In this document: positions 23,165 to 63,121 of the stretch, in pieces
How the letters are laid out: each line of letters starts with the position of its first letter
Numbering within the stretch: position 1 is the stretch's first letter
Source of the DNA: Peptococcaceae bacterium
Lineage (GTDB): Bacteria > Bacillota > Dehalobacteriia > UBA4068 > JAAVYR01
DNA length: 64,000 bases
Direction of reading: 5' to 3'
Assembly: GCA_022791255.1 (NCBI GenBank)
Contig: JAAVYR010000007.1
Location: 1 to 64,000, forward strand
Position numbers and translations under genes: made by a program
The notes under the pieces: model-generated
What the model saw: only the letters and a program-made list of their open reading frames with translations
Databases searched by the model: none
Told to the model about the DNA's origin: nothing

Positions 23165-23430
23165 ATATGGCCATCTATGATGAGGAGGAGCATTGTCTGG
23201 TATGTCTTGCAGAGAGGTGCGTTCTAGGCTGAAAAGCGCGCTATGACTGGGACAAGCAGGTAGCCTCGGAGATAATTGCCTGAAGGTGCAGATTTCCTGC
23301 ATTGGGTAAGGTAGTTCGGGTTTGCCCGTTACAGCAAAGAGTGCTTATTGGCATTTTTTATGCTAGTAGGAATTAAGGTGGTACCACGGAGCTTTTTCGT
23401 CCTTTTGGGTGAGGAGGCTCTTTTTTAATT
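23165..23430 (+). ncRNA. T-box leader riboswitch (upstream of valS)
   Basis: Canonical T-box AAGGTGGTACCACG (23374-23387) followed by a terminator-like stem with CGTCC and T run, directly upstream of an aminoacyl-tRNA synthetase. Confidence 0.92.
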
Positions 23431-23468: not shown

Positions 23469-26117
23469 ATGGCAGAAACCAAAAATAATATGCAGCTAAA
23501 TACAGTATATAACCCTAAAGAAGTAGAAGAAAAATGGTATGATTATTGGGAAAGTCACAAATGTTTTAGTTCGGAACACAACAAGGAAGGCGAACCTTTT
23601 TCCATCGTTATGCCGCCGCCGAATGTAACTGGGCAGCTCCATATGGGACATGCTCTGGATAACACCATGCAGGATATTCTTACTCGCTGGAAGCGTATGC
23701 AGGGGTATCATACCTTGTGGATACCAGGCACCGACCATGCCGGCATTGCAACCCAAGCAAAAGTGGAAGCACATTTGGCTAAAGACGGTATTAGTAAATA
23801 TGACTTGGGTCGGGAAAAATTCATCGAAAAAGTCTGGGAATGGAAAGACGAGTATCATGGCCGCATTACCAAGCAGCTGCGGAAATTAGGTTCTTCTTGT
23901 GACTGGGATAAGGAACGGTTTACCTTAGATGAGGGTTGCTCTGAGGCGGTACAGGAAGTTTTTGTGAAGCTCTATGAAAAAGGCCTCATCTATCGGGGTA
24001 GTTATATGATTAACTGGTGCCCAAAATGCCAGACCACCATTTCTGATATTGAAGTAGAACACAAAGATCATGCCAGTCATTTATGGCATTTGAAATATCC
24101 GCTGACAGATGGCAGTGGTTATGTTATCGTGGCAACTACCCGTCCAGAAACCATGCTCGGCGATACGGCAGTAGCAGTCCATCCCGATGATGAACGTTAT
24201 AAAGATATGGTGGGAAAAACTATCATGCTGCCTATCGTTAACCGGGAAATCCCTATCATTGCAGATGAATATGTAGATATGTCCTATGGGACAGGGGCTG
24301 TAAAAATCACACCGTCTCACGACCCTAATGACTTCAATATGGGGCTTGCGCATCACTTAGAACAAATCGTGGTTATTGGCAAAGACGCCAAAATGACAGA
24401 AGCAGCCGGAAAATTTGCAGGGCTTGATAGAGATGAATGCCGTAAGAAAGTAGTAGAAGAATTTGAACAGCTGGGGCTCCTGGTAAAAGTAGAAGATATC
24501 CAGCATGCAGTAGGGGAATGTTACCGCTGCGGCAGCGTTATCGAACCTCTGGTTTCTCCTCAATGGTTCATTAAGATGACCCCTTCTGTAGAAAAAGCTA
24601 CCAAAGCCATTGATAACAAGGATATTGCTTTTGTGCCAGACCGCTTTACCAAGATTTATTTGGGCTGGTTAGATGGCATTCGGGATTGGTGTATTTCCCG
24701 GCAATTGTGGTGGGGGCACCGTATCCCGGTGTGGTATTGTCAGGATTGTGGGGAAGTGATTTGTCAGAAGGAGGCGCCTCATACTTGTCCAAAATGCGGC
24801 TCCAGTAACTTAGAACAAGACCCGGATGTATTGGATACTTGGTTCTCTTCTGGGTTATGGCCTTTTTCCACTATGGGCTGGCCTAAAGAAACAGAAGATT
24901 TAAAGAAAATGTATCCAACTTCTGTCCTGGTAACGGGCCGGGATATTATCTTCTTCTGGGTGGCCAGAATGATTTTCATGGGTATGGAATTCATGGAAAA
25001 AGAACCATTTAAACATGTCCTAATCCATGGCTTAGTACTGGACGCCCAAGGACGGAAAATGTCTAAATCCTTGGGTAACGGTATCGACCCCTTAGAAGTC
25101 ATCGAGGAAGTTGGCGCGGACACCTTACGCTTCATGCTCATTACTGGGAACACGCCAGGGAATGACTTACGGTTCCAGCGGGAGCGGTTGGAGGCAGCAC
25201 GGAACTTTGCTAATAAAATCTGGAATGCCAGCCGTTTCGTATTGATGAACTTAACCGATTATGAAAAGGGTGCCTATACGCCGGAATATACATTAGCAGA
25301 TAAATGGATTTTGACCAGACTGTCTCAGACTATTGCAGATACGACTCGCTTCTTAGATAAATATGAGTTAGGGGAAGCGGCTCGGACCCTCTATGACTTT
25401 ATGTGGGATGAATTCTGTGATTGGTATATCGAAATGGCCAAAGCCAGACTTTATAAAGGAACGCCGGAACAAAAATACACCGCTCAGTTAGTGCTTTCTA
25501 CCGTACTGGAAAAGACTTTGCAGCTCTTGCATCCATTTATGCCGTTTATCACAGAGGAATTGTGGCAAAACTTGCCGGTAGAAGGGGATACCATCATGCT
25601 CTCCAAATGGCCGAAAGCTAATGATATTGCTGCTTATCCAGAGGAAGCTCAGCAGATGGCATTGTTGATGGAAGTCATTCGTGCTGTAAGAAATATTCGT
25701 GGAGAAATGAATGTACCGCTAGGGAAAAAATCCGAACTTATTCTTTGGGCAGATAGCGCTCAGCAGGAAATCCTTCGTCAGGGAGAAGAATATCTCTTGT
25801 CTTTAGCTAGTGCAGAAACAGTAGTCATCAGTGAAAAGCAGGAGGTAGCTCCGGAACAAGCCGGCAGCGCTCATGTGAAAGGTGTAGACATCTTCCTGCC
25901 GTTAAAAGGTTTAATCGACTTTGAAAAGGAAATTGCCCGCTTGAATAAAGAAATCGGTGCTATTGATAAAGACCTGGCGCGGATTAACGGGAAACTGGGG
26001 AACGAAGGCTTTCTCGCCAAAGCTCCTGCTGATGTCATTGAAAAGGAAAAGGCAAAGGCACTAGAATTGACAGAAAAGAAAGCGGCGTTGGCAGAACGAT
26101 TAGCCATGTTTTGCTAA
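23469..26117 (+). CDS. valS: Valyl-tRNA synthetase
   Basis: PPPNVTGQLHMGHALDNTMQD (HIGH), GRKMSKSLGNGIDPLEVI (KMSKS), C-terminal coiled coil. Confidence 0.97.
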   Translation: MAETKNNMQLNTVYNPKEVEEKWYDYWESHKCFSSEHNKEGEPFSIVMPPPNVTGQLHMGHALDNTMQDILTRWKRMQGYHTLWIPGTDHAGIATQAKVEAHLAKDGISKYDLGREKFIEKVWEWKDEYHGRITKQLRKLGSSCDWDKERFTLDEGCSEAVQEVFVKLYEKGLIYRGSYMINWCPKCQTTISDIEVEHKDHASHLWHLKYPLTDGSGYVIVATTRPETMLGDTAVAVHPDDERYKDMVGKTIMLPIVNREIPIIADEYVDMSYGTGAVKITPSHDPNDFNMGLAHHLEQIVVIGKDAKMTEAAGKFAGLDRDECRKKVVEEFEQLGLLVKVEDIQHAVGECYRCGSVIEPLVSPQWFIKMTPSVEKATKAIDNKDIAFVPDRFTKIYLGWLDGIRDWCISRQLWWGHRIPVWYCQDCGEVICQKEAPHTCPKCGSSNLEQDPDVLDTWFSSGLWPFSTMGWPKETEDLKKMYPTSVLVTGRDIIFFWVARMIFMGMEFMEKEPFKHVLIHGLVLDAQGRKMSKSLGNGIDPLEVIEEVGADTLRFMLITGNTPGNDLRFQRERLEAARNFANKIWNASRFVLMNLTDYEKGAYTPEYTLADKWILTRLSQTIADTTRFLDKYELGEAARTLYDFMWDEFCDWYIEMAKARLYKGTPEQKYTAQLVLSTVLEKTLQLLHPFMPFITEELWQNLPVEGDTIMLSKWPKANDIAAYPEEAQQMALLMEVIRAVRNIRGEMNVPLGKKSELILWADSAQQEILRQGEEYLLSLASAETVVISEKQEVAPEQAGSAHVKGVDIFLPLKGLIDFEKEIARLNKEIGAIDKDLARINGKLGNEGFLAKAPADVIEKEKAKALELTEKKAALAERLAMFC

Positions 26118-58220: not shown

Positions 58221-59174
58221 ATGTTTTTTCGTGTGTTTTCAGTCAGAAAGAATGGGAGAAAGTTATATTTTGCCATTCTTTTTTTAATGACAATAGGAAG
58301 TGTTTTTCTGTTTGGCCATCGTTATGGCACAGTGGGGAAACAGGATGATAATCAGGTATTAGCCATTGTGACGATGGACGCTCCGCTAGATATCTGGTTG
58401 GGCGGTGAGGAATTTCGTCTGCTGACAGGCGTCGCAGATAATGAATTATTGCTAGGCAAAGATGTTATATCCCAAAGAAGAAGAGCAGCCCAAATAGACA
58501 GCACTATACGGCAGGTGGCTGCAGGAGAAAAATCATTTCAGTCTTTGGGGGAAGACAGGATTTTTCGCAGCAGCAATGTAGAGAAAAAGCAAATCGCCCT
58601 TACCTTTGATGACGGGCCTAATGAAAGATGGACCGAAAAATATTTGAATTTATTAGAGGAAAAAGAAATCAAAGCTTCCTTTTTTATGTTGGGTAAAAAT
58701 GCCAAAAACCACCCAGAACTAGTGCAAAAAGTAGCAGCTGCAGGCCATGATATTGGCATTCATTCTTATGACCATGCTGATTTAAAAAGAGAGGATTATA
58801 CCGCTATCCAAGAAGATTTAATCCAATCTCAGGATACCATTGCAAGTATTACCGGTGTGGCGCCGACGCTTTTTCGTCCGCCATATGGCAGCATTGATGC
58901 ACAGGTAATAGAGGTAGCCCAGGAGCAAGGGCTTCTCATGGTATTATGGAATGTTGATCCGCAGGATTGGCTCCTGGATACGAAAGAAAAAGTGGCAAAG
59001 GCGGTGCTGGATCATGTGGAACCGGGCAATATTGTCGTGATGCATGAAGGGAAAGCGGTGACCTTCGGAGCACTGCCTATGATTATTGATACCTTAAAAG
59101 AGGAAGGGTATGAGTTTGTTACTATACGGGAGCTGGTCTATGAGAGCTGCATGGAGCAGGCAGAGAGAGGATAG
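58221..59174 (+). CDS. Membrane-anchored polysaccharide deacetylase (NodB domain)
   Basis: ALTFDDGPNERWTEKYLNLLEEKEIKASFFMLGKNAKNHPELVQKVAAAGHDIGIHSYDH; LFRPPYGSID; N-terminal TM. Confidence 0.93.
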   Translation: MFFRVFSVRKNGRKLYFAILFLMTIGSVFLFGHRYGTVGKQDDNQVLAIVTMDAPLDIWLGGEEFRLLTGVADNELLLGKDVISQRRRAAQIDSTIRQVAAGEKSFQSLGEDRIFRSSNVEKKQIALTFDDGPNERWTEKYLNLLEEKEIKASFFMLGKNAKNHPELVQKVAAAGHDIGIHSYDHADLKREDYTAIQEDLIQSQDTIASITGVAPTLFRPPYGSIDAQVIEVAQEQGLLMVLWNVDPQDWLLDTKEKVAKAVLDHVEPGNIVVMHEGKAVTFGALPMIIDTLKEEGYEFVTIRELVYESCMEQAERG

Positions 59175-59369: not shown

Positions 59370-60140
59370 ATGTTAACCGAGATTGATGGAGTAAGGCTAA
59401 ATTATCATGTATCAGGGCAGGGCTATCCGGTAGTGTTGCTCCATGGTTGGGGTGGCAGCATTGCTTCCTTTGCGCCTGTTCATGCGCACTTGGAAAAAGA
59501 TTTTACTGTCTACTCTTTGGATATGCCAGGTTTTGGGGAGAGTCCGGAACCGCCATGTCCCTGGGGAACAGTGGAATATGCAGCGCTAGTGGAGAAGTTT
59601 TTACAGCAACAAGGCATTGAAAAACCAATCTTAGTGGGACACTCCTTTGGAGGGCGGCTGACCATCCGTTTGGCTGCAAAGGGTATCCCGAAAAAGATTA
59701 TTTTAGTGGATGCTGCAGGTATTCCGCCTCATCGTAGCATGGGATATTATTTCCGGGTGTACCGCTTTAAGGCGTTAAAAGGCGTCCTATCTCTACCGGG
59801 ATTGCACTTGATAAAACCGAAAGTATTAGATTGGTATCGTAATAAATACGGTTCTAGCGATTATAAGGATACCAGTGGGGTGATGCGTGGTTCTTTTATC
59901 AAGGTTGTCAATGAGGACTTGCGGCCGTTACTACCACAAATCAAAGCGTCGGCACTTTTAATCTGGGGGGACCAGGATACGGCGACGCCTTTGTCAGATG
60001 GCAAGCTTATGGAAATGGAAATCCCTGATAGTGGTTTAGTGGTTTTAAAGAATACAGGGCATTTCTCCTATCTGGAAAAATTAGGAGAGTTTCTTCTCAT
60101 CATCGATAGTTTTTTGCAAAAAGAAAGAGAGGCTAAGTAA
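59370..60140 (+). CDS. Alpha/beta-fold hydrolase
   Basis: VVLLHGWGGSIASFAPV; ILVGHSFGGRLTIRLA (GHSFGG nucleophile elbow); IWGDQDTATPLSD; NTGHFSYLE. Confidence 0.94.
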   Translation: MLTEIDGVRLNYHVSGQGYPVVLLHGWGGSIASFAPVHAHLEKDFTVYSLDMPGFGESPEPPCPWGTVEYAALVEKFLQQQGIEKPILVGHSFGGRLTIRLAAKGIPKKIILVDAAGIPPHRSMGYYFRVYRFKALKGVLSLPGLHLIKPKVLDWYRNKYGSSDYKDTSGVMRGSFIKVVNEDLRPLLPQIKASALLIWGDQDTATPLSDGKLMEMEIPDSGLVVLKNTGHFSYLEKLGEFLLIIDSFLQKEREAK

Positions 60141-61736
60141 ATGGAATTGCTTCTTTTGGGGCTTATCTTTTTAACATATCATTTATATACAGGGAAAAAG
60201 TTGATTTACGGTATTCACATGCTCCAGCAAAATTCTTATATGAATGGTCGCTATTATCGTTGGTTAAAGGTTAATAAAAAACAGTTGTTTACCTGGCCGG
60301 CTCTATTGCTATTGTTGCCGATTGTTGGCGTCTGGGTAGAAAAACAGTTTGGAGTTGATTATTTATCCTTGGGTAGTGTAGCCTTGGTTTATGGGGTGAT
60401 GGGGTTTGTTTATCATCGTCCGGCAGAGAAGAAAAAGCTGGTTTATACACCAAGAGTGAAACGACTCATTGCCATGACCTTTCTTCTGTTGACGGTCTTT
60501 ACTTTGTTCTGTCTTTTGGTATTCATGGTTCACTATATTACCCTTGCTATTTTGCTGTTGGCTGCTTTGCATGTAGGATATTTTCTCTTTGTTCTTTGCG
60601 GCAATGCTGTTATGCAGCCAGTAGAAGACCATATTAATCTGGGCTATTTTAAAGATGCACAGAAAATCGTCAATAGCTTACCAAACTTGACCCGCATTGG
60701 GTTAACCGGAAGCTTTGGGAAAACCAGCAGCAAGTTTATTTTGGGGCAACTATTAGAGCAGCAGTTTAATGTGTTGGTCTCCCCGGAAAGCTATAATACG
60801 CCGATGGGCTTAACCCGTGTGATCCGGGAGCGGCTCCGTCCTACTAATGATATTTTTGTGGGAGAGATGGGCGCAAAGCGGCCGGGAGATATTGAAGAAC
60901 TTTGTCAATTGGTAAATCCTCAAATCGGTATTATCACGGCCATTGGGGAACAGCACTTGGAAACCTTTGGCGACTTGGAAACCATTAAAAAGACAAAGTT
61001 TGAGTTAGTAGATTATTTGCCTGCAGATGGGCTGGCTATCCTCAATGGCGATGATGAAAATATCGTTTCCATGCTGGGAACGGTAACTTGTCCCTATGTG
61101 CTTTATGGTATCACGGGAGAAAATCTGACTTATCGGGCCTGGGACATTCGCTTTACTGGGCAAGGGATGAGTTTTATGGTGAATAATAAAGCGGGAGAAA
61201 CCTGTACCATTACGACGAAATTATTAGGCCGACATAATGTATATAATATTTTAGCAGCGGTAGCTTGTGGGGATTATCTGGGTATGCCTCTTACCAAAAT
61301 CGCCCAAGGGGTAAAACGGGTAGAGCCTATCCCTCACCGGCTGGAAATCAAACGCTATGCGGCAAACTTTATCACCATTGATGACGCCTTCAACTCTAAT
61401 CCTGTGGGCTCTAAATCTGCTTTAGAGGTATTGGGGCTGATGGAAGGTAACAAGAAAATTATCATCACTCCAGGCATGGTAGAGCTAGGTGACCGTGAAT
61501 ATGAGTTAAATAAAGAGTTTGCTAAAGAATGTGCCAACGTATGCGATTATATTATCTTAGTCGGGAAGAACCATTCTCAGCCATTACAAGATGGTTTGGC
61601 AGAAATCAATCTGCCAGCAGAGCGGTATTTCGTTGCTGCAGATTTAACAGAAGCTGTCCATAAGCTAGCGGAGATTGTGGGTACAGGGGATGTCGTCCTC
61701 TATGAAAATGATTTACCGGATACTTATAACGAATAG
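60141..61736 (+). CDS. Membrane-anchored Mur ligase-family protein (MurF-like)
   Basis: About five N-terminal TM segments, then GLTGSFGKTSSKFILGQLL (P-loop), LGRHNVYNILAAVACG, TIDDAFNSNPVGSKSALEVLGLMEGNKKIIITPGMVELG; starts at the base after the hydrolase stop. Confidence 0.88.
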   Translation: MELLLLGLIFLTYHLYTGKKLIYGIHMLQQNSYMNGRYYRWLKVNKKQLFTWPALLLLLPIVGVWVEKQFGVDYLSLGSVALVYGVMGFVYHRPAEKKKLVYTPRVKRLIAMTFLLLTVFTLFCLLVFMVHYITLAILLLAALHVGYFLFVLCGNAVMQPVEDHINLGYFKDAQKIVNSLPNLTRIGLTGSFGKTSSKFILGQLLEQQFNVLVSPESYNTPMGLTRVIRERLRPTNDIFVGEMGAKRPGDIEELCQLVNPQIGIITAIGEQHLETFGDLETIKKTKFELVDYLPADGLAILNGDDENIVSMLGTVTCPYVLYGITGENLTYRAWDIRFTGQGMSFMVNNKAGETCTITTKLLGRHNVYNILAAVACGDYLGMPLTKIAQGVKRVEPIPHRLEIKRYAANFITIDDAFNSNPVGSKSALEVLGLMEGNKKIIITPGMVELGDREYELNKEFAKECANVCDYIILVGKNHSQPLQDGLAEINLPAERYFVAADLTEAVHKLAEIVGTGDVVLYENDLPDTYNE

Positions 61737-61878
61737 GATATGTTATTGTTGCCCGGTGCTTCGGCTGATAGATAAGAGGATGCTGGGAAAAAGAGAAAAA
61801 GTTTGTTATAATAATGACAAAGGTCTTATCAACTCGTTTTCTTGTTAGGGCGTTATGAAAAACCGAGGAGGGTGTTTT

Positions 61879-63072
61879 ATGCAGAAAATAAGAGTCGGGG
61901 TAATCTTTGGTGGGAAATCTGTGGAGCATGAAATCTCTATTGTTTCTGCACTGCAGGCAATGGCTGCGCTAGATCAGGAAAAATACAGCGTAACGCCTAT
62001 TTATATAACTAAAGAGGGTGTTTGGTATACGGGGGAAAGGCTAACGGATATCGAAGCCTATCGCAAGTTGCCTGAGTTACTGGCTACTTGTCAGAAAATT
62101 GTTCCTGCTGTCAACAGTGATGAGCGGCAATATTATATCCCAAAGCAAGGGATGTTTGCTAAATGGCTCCAAGAGCAAATTGATGTCATGTTGCCAGTGT
62201 TCCATGGTTCTCATGGGGAAGATGGCTGTGTGCAGGGACTGTTTGAGCTGATGAATATTCCTTATGCCGGTCCTGGCGTCCTAGGGGCAGCTGTCGGTAT
62301 GGATAAAATCATGATGAAAGCCGTCCTAAAAGACGCGGGGCTTCCTATTGTGCCTTATGTCTGGTTTACCGGATATCGTTGGGTAGAATATCAGGACGCT
62401 GTTATTGATGAAATCGAAAAAGAACTAGGGTATCCTGTTATTGTAAAACCGGCTAACTTAGGTTCTAGCATTGGCATTGGCAAGGCAGATACGAGAGAAC
62501 AGCTGATAGAAGCCATTGACTTAGCAGCTGGTTTTAGCAGCCGTATCGTCATCGAAAAAATGGTCGAAAGCCTGCGTGAAATCAATTGCTCTGTATTAGG
62601 CGATGTAGAGTATGCGGAAGCTTCTGTCTGTGAGGAACCAGTGGCAGCAAAGGATATCCTGACCTATGCAGATAAATATATGAAGGATAGTGCGACCAAA
62701 GCTGGGGATAGCAAGGGAATGGCTAGCCTTTCCCGGCAAATCCCTGCCAATATTGGGGAAGAACTAACTCAGCAGGTGCAAGACTATGCTAAGAAAGCCT
62801 TTATTGCCTTAGATGGTTCCGGGGTGAGTCGTATTGACTTTTTATTAAATGGTAGCACGGGGCAAGTATATGTCAATGAAATCAACACCATCCCGGGGTC
62901 GTTATCTTTTTACTTATGGCAAGCTACCGGCAGAGACTTTAGCAGGTTGATGGATAAATTGATTGAATTGGCGCTGAAGAGAAATCGTGAGAAAAACCGC
63001 TTAACCTACTCTTATGATGGCAATATCTTAGCCGGTGGAAACTTCGGCGGGCTAAAGGGAACCAAAAAATAA
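61879..63072 (+). CDS. ddl: D-alanine--D-alanine ligase
   Basis: KIRVGVIFGGKSVEHEISIVSALQAM; PVFHGSHGEDGCVQGLFELMNIPYAGPGVLGAAVGMDK; YVNEINTIPGS; start ATG 61879. Confidence 0.96.
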   Translation: MQKIRVGVIFGGKSVEHEISIVSALQAMAALDQEKYSVTPIYITKEGVWYTGERLTDIEAYRKLPELLATCQKIVPAVNSDERQYYIPKQGMFAKWLQEQIDVMLPVFHGSHGEDGCVQGLFELMNIPYAGPGVLGAAVGMDKIMMKAVLKDAGLPIVPYVWFTGYRWVEYQDAVIDEIEKELGYPVIVKPANLGSSIGIGKADTREQLIEAIDLAAGFSSRIVIEKMVESLREINCSVLGDVEYAEASVCEEPVAAKDILTYADKYMKDSATKAGDSKGMASLSRQIPANIGEELTQQVQDYAKKAFIALDGSGVSRIDFLLNGSTGQVYVNEINTIPGSLSFYLWQATGRDFSRLMDKLIELALKRNREKNRLTYSYDGNILAGGNFGGLKGTKK

Positions 63073-63082
63073 AATAAACATA

Positions 63083-63121
63083 AAAAATACTGGTTATTGG
63101 GAAAAATAGCCAGTATTTTCT
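63083..63121 (+). terminator. Terminator after ddl
   Basis: AAAATACTGG...CCAGTATTTTcTTTT hairpin. Confidence 0.75.

Follow-up and report, generated by a model that had tools for sequence, protein, structure and literature searches.

A predicted membrane-embedded MurF-type ligase, encoded together with an alpha/beta hydrolase and Ddl, very probably replaces soluble MurF in bacteria of two phyla

Introduction

MurF is regarded as a universal, soluble and essential enzyme, and as a drug target. Among its relatives, the poly-gamma-glutamate synthase PgsB/CapB is a Mur-ligase-like enzyme that acts at the membrane. MurT, which lacks the uridine diphosphate (UDP)-binding N-domain, works on lipid I and lipid II instead of UDP-linked precursors, and the uridine bound by that N-domain is absent from lipid II (PMC6085368; PMC3266927). 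Here we describe a Mur ligase of 531 residues, referred to below as TM-MurF, in which predicted transmembrane (TM) helices stand where MurF has its N-domain. It is encoded between an alpha/beta hydrolase and a D-Ala-D-Ala ligase (Ddl) in a 64,000-nucleotide stretch of DNA (positions 1 to 64,000 of contig JAAVYR010000007.1, assembly GCA_022791255.1, from a Peptococcaceae bacterium), hereafter the window. An initial annotation, made from the sequence alone, had viewed these genes as a possible non-canonical module whose ligase may act at the membrane on a lipid-linked or unusual precursor. Our analysis suggests that TM-MurF very likely serves as the sole MurF of this organism and belongs to a conserved three-gene module.

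Results

The three genes lie on the + strand in the order hydrolase (59370-60140), TM-MurF (60141-61736) and Ddl (61882-63072). The TAA stop codon of the hydrolase open reading frame (ORF) abuts the ATG of the ligase ORF at position 60141. The best start for Ddl is at 61882, with GGAGG just 5' of it and a gap of 145 bp from the end of the ligase gene. The initial annotation had read the motifs, TM segments, abutting hydrolase and ligase genes and Ddl assignment correctly, as judged by ORFs, Pfam and AlphaFold. Scanning the genome (1.56 Mb, 97% complete) for the Mur central domain returned five loci, identified by their positions and by a reading of the division and cell wall (dcw) cluster: TM-MurF, three loci within that cluster (MurE, MurD and MurC), and one that we infer to be FolC. 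No canonical murF was found in the genome, as TM-MurF ranked best in a profile search with the MurF model and no locus exceeded the cut-off. The intact dcw cluster occupies a single contig, with gene names assigned by similarity and gene order (mraZ-mraW-ftsL-ftsI-murE-mraY-murD-ftsW-murG-murC-murB-murA-ftsQ), and contains no murF between murE and mraY. An assembly gap was ruled out as the cause: no break interrupts the dcw contig, and canonical murF is equally absent from genomes that are 100% complete. TM-MurF is thus very probably the housekeeping MurF, rather than a companion to one.

The Ddl that adjoins TM-MurF (396 residues; 295 bits compared to a family cut-off of 245.65) is likewise the only Ddl in the genome. 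Its KY motif (K274-Y275), which we take to mark D-Ala-D-Ala-type enzymes, is invariant in 25 sequences, ruling out a D-Ala-D-Lac-type Ddl. MurE of the dcw cluster carries DNPR, as expected for meso-diaminopimelate. These 2 features speak against the unusual stem peptide that had been considered and, together with the MurF residues retained in TM-MurF, they make D-Ala-D-Ala addition the most likely reaction.

We measured the co-occurrence of TM-MurF and canonical MurF across several genome sets. Among 61 relatives, 33 encode TM-MurF, 25 encode canonical MurF above the cut-off, and none encodes both; the 3 with neither (G018, G032 and G033) are drafts of 90, 65 and 74% completeness, respectively. 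When only the membrane domain was used as a profile, it matched 23 of the 399 genomes in the phylum, eight of them outside the class, in seven families. Canonical MurF above the cut-off is absent from six of these eight, including the 100%-complete genomes G073, G187 and G240. Six genomes found by sequence search, labeled Bacteroidales or Clostridia, similarly possess TM-MurF and no MurF above the cut-off. In a set of 79 Bacteroidota genomes gathered around one genome from the sequence search, with TM-MurF tallied by hand from the table, 46 carry TM-MurF, 31 carry standalone canonical MurF and none carries both. Fisher p values for exclusion were 4e-14 for the relatives and 6e-20 for the Bacteroidota, and are descriptive as they ignore shared ancestry. 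Phylum names rest on public record titles (Peptococcaceae for locus L013; Barnesiella, Muribaculaceae and Bacteroidales for L015-L018), together with supporting genes. Contamination of metagenome-assembled genomes is an unlikely source of the Bacteroidota matches: there are 46 carriers, several of which share the same ileS-side neighbors, and the genomes read carry MurF-alanine racemase fusions and a MraY of ~421 residues. Taken together, these findings indicate that TM-MurF has very probably displaced the soluble canonical MurF.

Several genomes retain traces of such a replacement. Both genomes of family f81 still possess a shortened murF ORF at its dcw position, flanked by murE and mraY: that of G297 (266 residues; L090, 2908-3708) lacks the P-loop and the C-domain, while that of G226 (330 residues; L091, 2745-3737) lacks the C-domain. 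These remnants are long open frames and may retain a residual role. In four Bacteroidota genomes (G061-G064; L128-L131), the MurF half of a MurF-alanine racemase fusion has no recognizable HNxxN or DDxYNxNP motif; the racemase half is seemingly intact in the three complete fusions. In many other Bacteroidota genomes with TM-MurF, by contrast, this MurF half gives a match across the full MurF profile. Genus g14 (G026, G030 and G034; L050-L052) is nested within a TM-MurF family by the MraY tree, yet lacks the hydrolase and has a canonical ddl-murF pair, representing an apparent reverse replacement. In family f6, which belongs to the same class, a canonical ddl-murF pair lies near dprA, with a deacetylase or yifB close by, which is the neighborhood that the trio occupies in this order. 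By these signs, the hydrolase/TM-MurF/Ddl trio seems interchangeable with a soluble ddl-murF pair.

The proposal that hydrolase, ligase and ddl form a conserved trio was borne out strongly, and in two phyla. At 37 loci (the window plus 18, 8 and 10 from three locus readings, with further loci cut by contig ends), all three genes are present and keep the same order, which excludes a chance arrangement. The sole exception seen, L142 (2713-6432; G446), has adjacent TM-MurF and Ddl genes with unrelated genes in place of the hydrolase. Genes flanking the trio vary by lineage: yifB, a deacetylase and dprA are found here, and ileS in several Bacteroidota. Among the 61 relatives, the hydrolase is restricted to genomes with TM-MurF; the apparent mismatches are G007, where TM-MurF lies at a contig start, and G033, where the hydrolase lies at a contig end. 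Pairwise distances of the three module proteins remained correlated after MraY was removed (0.68, 0.77 and 0.56; 0 of 2000 permutations each). In the TM-MurF tree, Bacteroidota proteins fall among those of Bacillota, although the MraY proteins of the 2 phyla are far apart. Based on these 2 observations, the trio was most likely transferred between genomes as a unit. No plasmid-borne relative covering 80% of TM-MurF was found, the best matches covering 71% at ~31% identity.

We next consider the ligase itself. Pfam matched Mur_ligase_M (2.4e-40, residues 189-376) and Mur_ligase_C (3.3e-13, residues 399-520) to TM-MurF, and the catalytic half (central and C-terminal domains) spans residues 183-531 (60687-61733). 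The best NCBIfam model was MurF, with 224.4 bits compared to the TIGR01143 cut-off of 288.6 and coverage of profile positions 72-402 of 418; no NCBIfam model reached its own cut-off. The ten best Foldseek matches to the TM-MurF model were all MurF structures. Catalytic features of MurF are retained, namely the P-loop, H272, K286 and DDxxNxNP. The ATP-binding P-loop GLTGSFGKT (residues 187-195; 60699-60725) has an invariant TGSxGKT core, and D414, D415, A416, N418, N420 and P421 of the C-domain motif DDAFNSNP (residues 414-421; 61380-61403) are invariant in 26 TM-MurF proteins. Near the C-terminus, ENDLPD (residues 522-527; 61704-61721) is near-invariant and possibly contributes to binding of the acceptor or dipeptide.

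Pfam detected no Mur N-domain in TM-MurF, and no family above cut-off in its N-terminal 179 residues, the part for which the initial annotation had looked to profile searches and structure prediction. AlphaFold, supplied with 8 sequences (mean pLDDT, the predicted local distance difference test, 79), placed five long helices there (2-28, 46-70, 75-97, 104-130 and 134-178), followed by the Mur core, and five TM helices are thus predicted to stand in place of the UDP-binding N-domain of MurF. Conservation within this membrane half is concentrated in two loops: at least 90% conservation is reached at 12 of 35 loop positions, compared to 1 of 114 helix positions (p=6e-8). Loop A (residues 25-45, MLQQNSYMNGRYYRW; 60213-60275) contributes 5 of 21 such positions and loop B (residues 95-108, AEKKKLVYTPRVKR; 60423-60464) 7 of 14; their consensus patterns are MxQxxxYxxxRYxxW and KKxLVxTxRxKR. 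Since both loops are basic, the positive-inside rule assigns them to the cytosolic side of the membrane. Such conservation exceeds what a plain anchor would need.

In a tree of the catalytic halves, the 26 TM-MurF proteins form one clade (support 100/94), sister to eight canonical MurF proteins (99/97), with MurE outside; TM-MurF was not placed inside the canonical clade. The suggestion that the protein might simply be the housekeeping MurF with a TM extension thus held for its role as sole MurF, and failed for its architecture, as it lacks the UDP-binding N-domain and belongs to a clade of its own. TM-MurF appears to define a subfamily of MurF-related Mur ligases, residing in a conserved module, that was not known from the literature searched. 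No published membrane MurF was found there, a weak negative since the search covered open-access papers alone, and two near matches proved unrelated.

The hydrolase (256 residues; Pfam Abhydrolase_1, 4e-31) has a Ser-Asp-His triad (S92-D203-H231) that is invariant in 26 sequences, ruling out an inactive enzyme. Its AlphaFold model (pLDDT 89) matches the esterase/lipase fold. Among solved structures, the closest are esterases and lipases, and a membrane phospholipase A ranks first by both sequence and structure.

Other features of the window include a PdaB-like polysaccharide deacetylase gene (58221-59174) located 5' of the trio, a position that some members of the order share. It scores 203.5 with the PdaB model, below the cut-off of 237.4. 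A terminator-like hairpin with a 15-pair stem and T-rich tail lies between ddl and dprA on the + strand (63084-63119), identified as a consensus match only. A T-box leader (23168-23407) precedes an 882-residue ORF resembling class I aminoacyl-tRNA synthetases (23469-26117).

Discussion

We propose that Ddl would make D-Ala-D-Ala in the cytosol, and that the cytosolic catalytic half of TM-MurF would use ATP to activate the terminal carboxylate of the tripeptide and couple the dipeptide to it, as in MurF. The acceptor would be a lipid-linked tripeptide (lipid I or lipid II), such that MraY would precede the last Mur ligase. B. subtilis MraY accepts UDP-N-acetylmuramic acid (MurNAc)-tripeptide with an activity merely 17% lower, although older work, as it is cited in that same paper, found MraY to be much weaker on this substrate (PMC4987650). 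Since MraY can take UDP-MurNAc-tripeptide, it need not await MurF. We consider a lipid-linked acceptor the most likely one, since the uridine-holding domain has given way to helices, and the parts conserved among these are two basic loops on the membrane side; MurT offers an analogy, and we give this acceptor an even chance. The lipid-linked substrate of the initial annotation gained indirect backing from loop conservation, the MurT analogy and the tolerance of MraY for tripeptide, and stays evenly poised. Our overall view, that TM-MurF is the only enzyme adding D-Ala-D-Ala, has displaced soluble MurF, moves together with Ddl and the hydrolase and uses a lipid-linked acceptor, is one that we hold to be about as probable as its negation, leaving the role of the hydrolase aside.

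Several observations weigh against this view. Two of the eight outlying genomes, G226 and G404, carry TM-MurF and canonical MurF together. ENDLPD replaces the canonical K(G/A)S and TPGMVELG replaces LGDMxELG, both near the presumed acceptor pocket, so that the nucleophile could differ. Lipid pyrophosphate need not be the ligand of the basic loops, which could instead bind MraY or UDP, and confidence in the AlphaFold model of the membrane domain is moderate. No convergent substitutions were found in MraY, where no alignment column separates the paired contrasts.

Ranked next, and tentatively possible, is an alternative in which TM-MurF remains a housekeeping MurF acting on soluble UDP-MurNAc-tripeptide. 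Its membrane domain would dock beside MraY, with the loops binding UDP or MraY, and Park's nucleotide would be channeled from one enzyme to the other. Evidence for replacement fits this alternative equally well; the ability of canonical MurF to substitute in genus g14 with no visible change elsewhere, together with the lack of any MraY change accompanying TM-MurF, agrees with it as well. It has more difficulty with the absence of a uridine-binding domain from TM-MurF, with a degree of loop conservation that is high for a mere anchor, and with MurT, the only solved Mur-type precedent without an N-domain, which uses lipid-linked substrates alone.

The hydrolase could plausibly be an esterase with an editing or clean-up task. 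That it acts by cleaving a precursor mis-made in the membrane step, or a by-product of that step, would be a guess, and a rather unlikely one in this specific form. Still less probable is that it is a bystander, located beside TM-MurF through operon history and operating outside the pathway. We know of no biochemical link between the alpha/beta hydrolase fold and MurF, and the locus with TM-MurF and Ddl but no adjacent hydrolase would suit a bystander; an ordered trio at 37 loci over two phyla, a hydrolase found (contig ends aside) in exactly the TM-MurF genomes among the 61 relatives, an invariant triad, and hydrolase distances that track TM-MurF beyond MraY would not. Least probable of all is that TM-MurF serves another envelope polymer or adds another residue while an unrecognized enzyme performs the D-Ala-D-Ala step, as the two changed C-terminal-domain motifs and the score under the MurF cut-off are countered by complete genomes without any other MurF candidate, by the swapping of TM-MurF for canonical ddl-murF pairs, and by the D-Ala-D-Ala-type Ddl that always adjoins it.

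Whole clades of gut bacteria from two phyla, including a large group of Bacteroidota (records labeled Muribaculaceae or Bacteroidales) and many Bacillota, thus appear to have exchanged MurF for an integral membrane relative in a transferable three-gene module. TM-MurF explains the seeming absence of murF from the dcw clusters of these bacteria, and the module ties a conserved hydrolase to cell-wall synthesis. Whether the stem pentapeptide is finished before attachment to the lipid carrier becomes a testable question: these bacteria may carry out a textbook step of wall synthesis at a later stage and in another place than model bacteria do. Inhibitors of soluble MurF may likewise miss these organisms.

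Compared with described systems, TM-MurF is distinguished from PgsB/CapB by score (20.5 bits compared to a cut-off of 222.7), operon and motifs. The MurF-alanine racemase fusion of Bacteroidota (PRK11930) is likewise a non-standard MurF architecture that co-occurs with TM-MurF in many Bacteroidota genomes, but it keeps the canonical N-domain, has no TM helices, and is degenerate in its MurF half in G061-G064. MurT of the lipid II isoglutaminyl synthase MurT/GatD resembles TM-MurF in having a Mur core without the UDP-binding N-domain and acts on a lipid-linked precursor (PMC6085368); however, TM-MurF scores 32.9 bits compared to the MurT cut-off of 800, MurT has no TM domain, and TM-MurF is partnered with Ddl and the hydrolase, with no GatD in the locus and no cysteine-rich insertion. 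Canonical MurF (TIGR01143; 1gg4, 4cvk and 4qf5) differs from TM-MurF in possessing the N-terminal uridine-binding domain, and TM-MurF from it in its five TM helices, its score under the cut-off, and its ENDLPD and TPGMVELG motifs. The 2 nevertheless share the central ATPase and C-terminal domains, the P-loop, H272, K286 and DDxxNxNP, and canonical MurF provides both the best structural matches and the sister clade.

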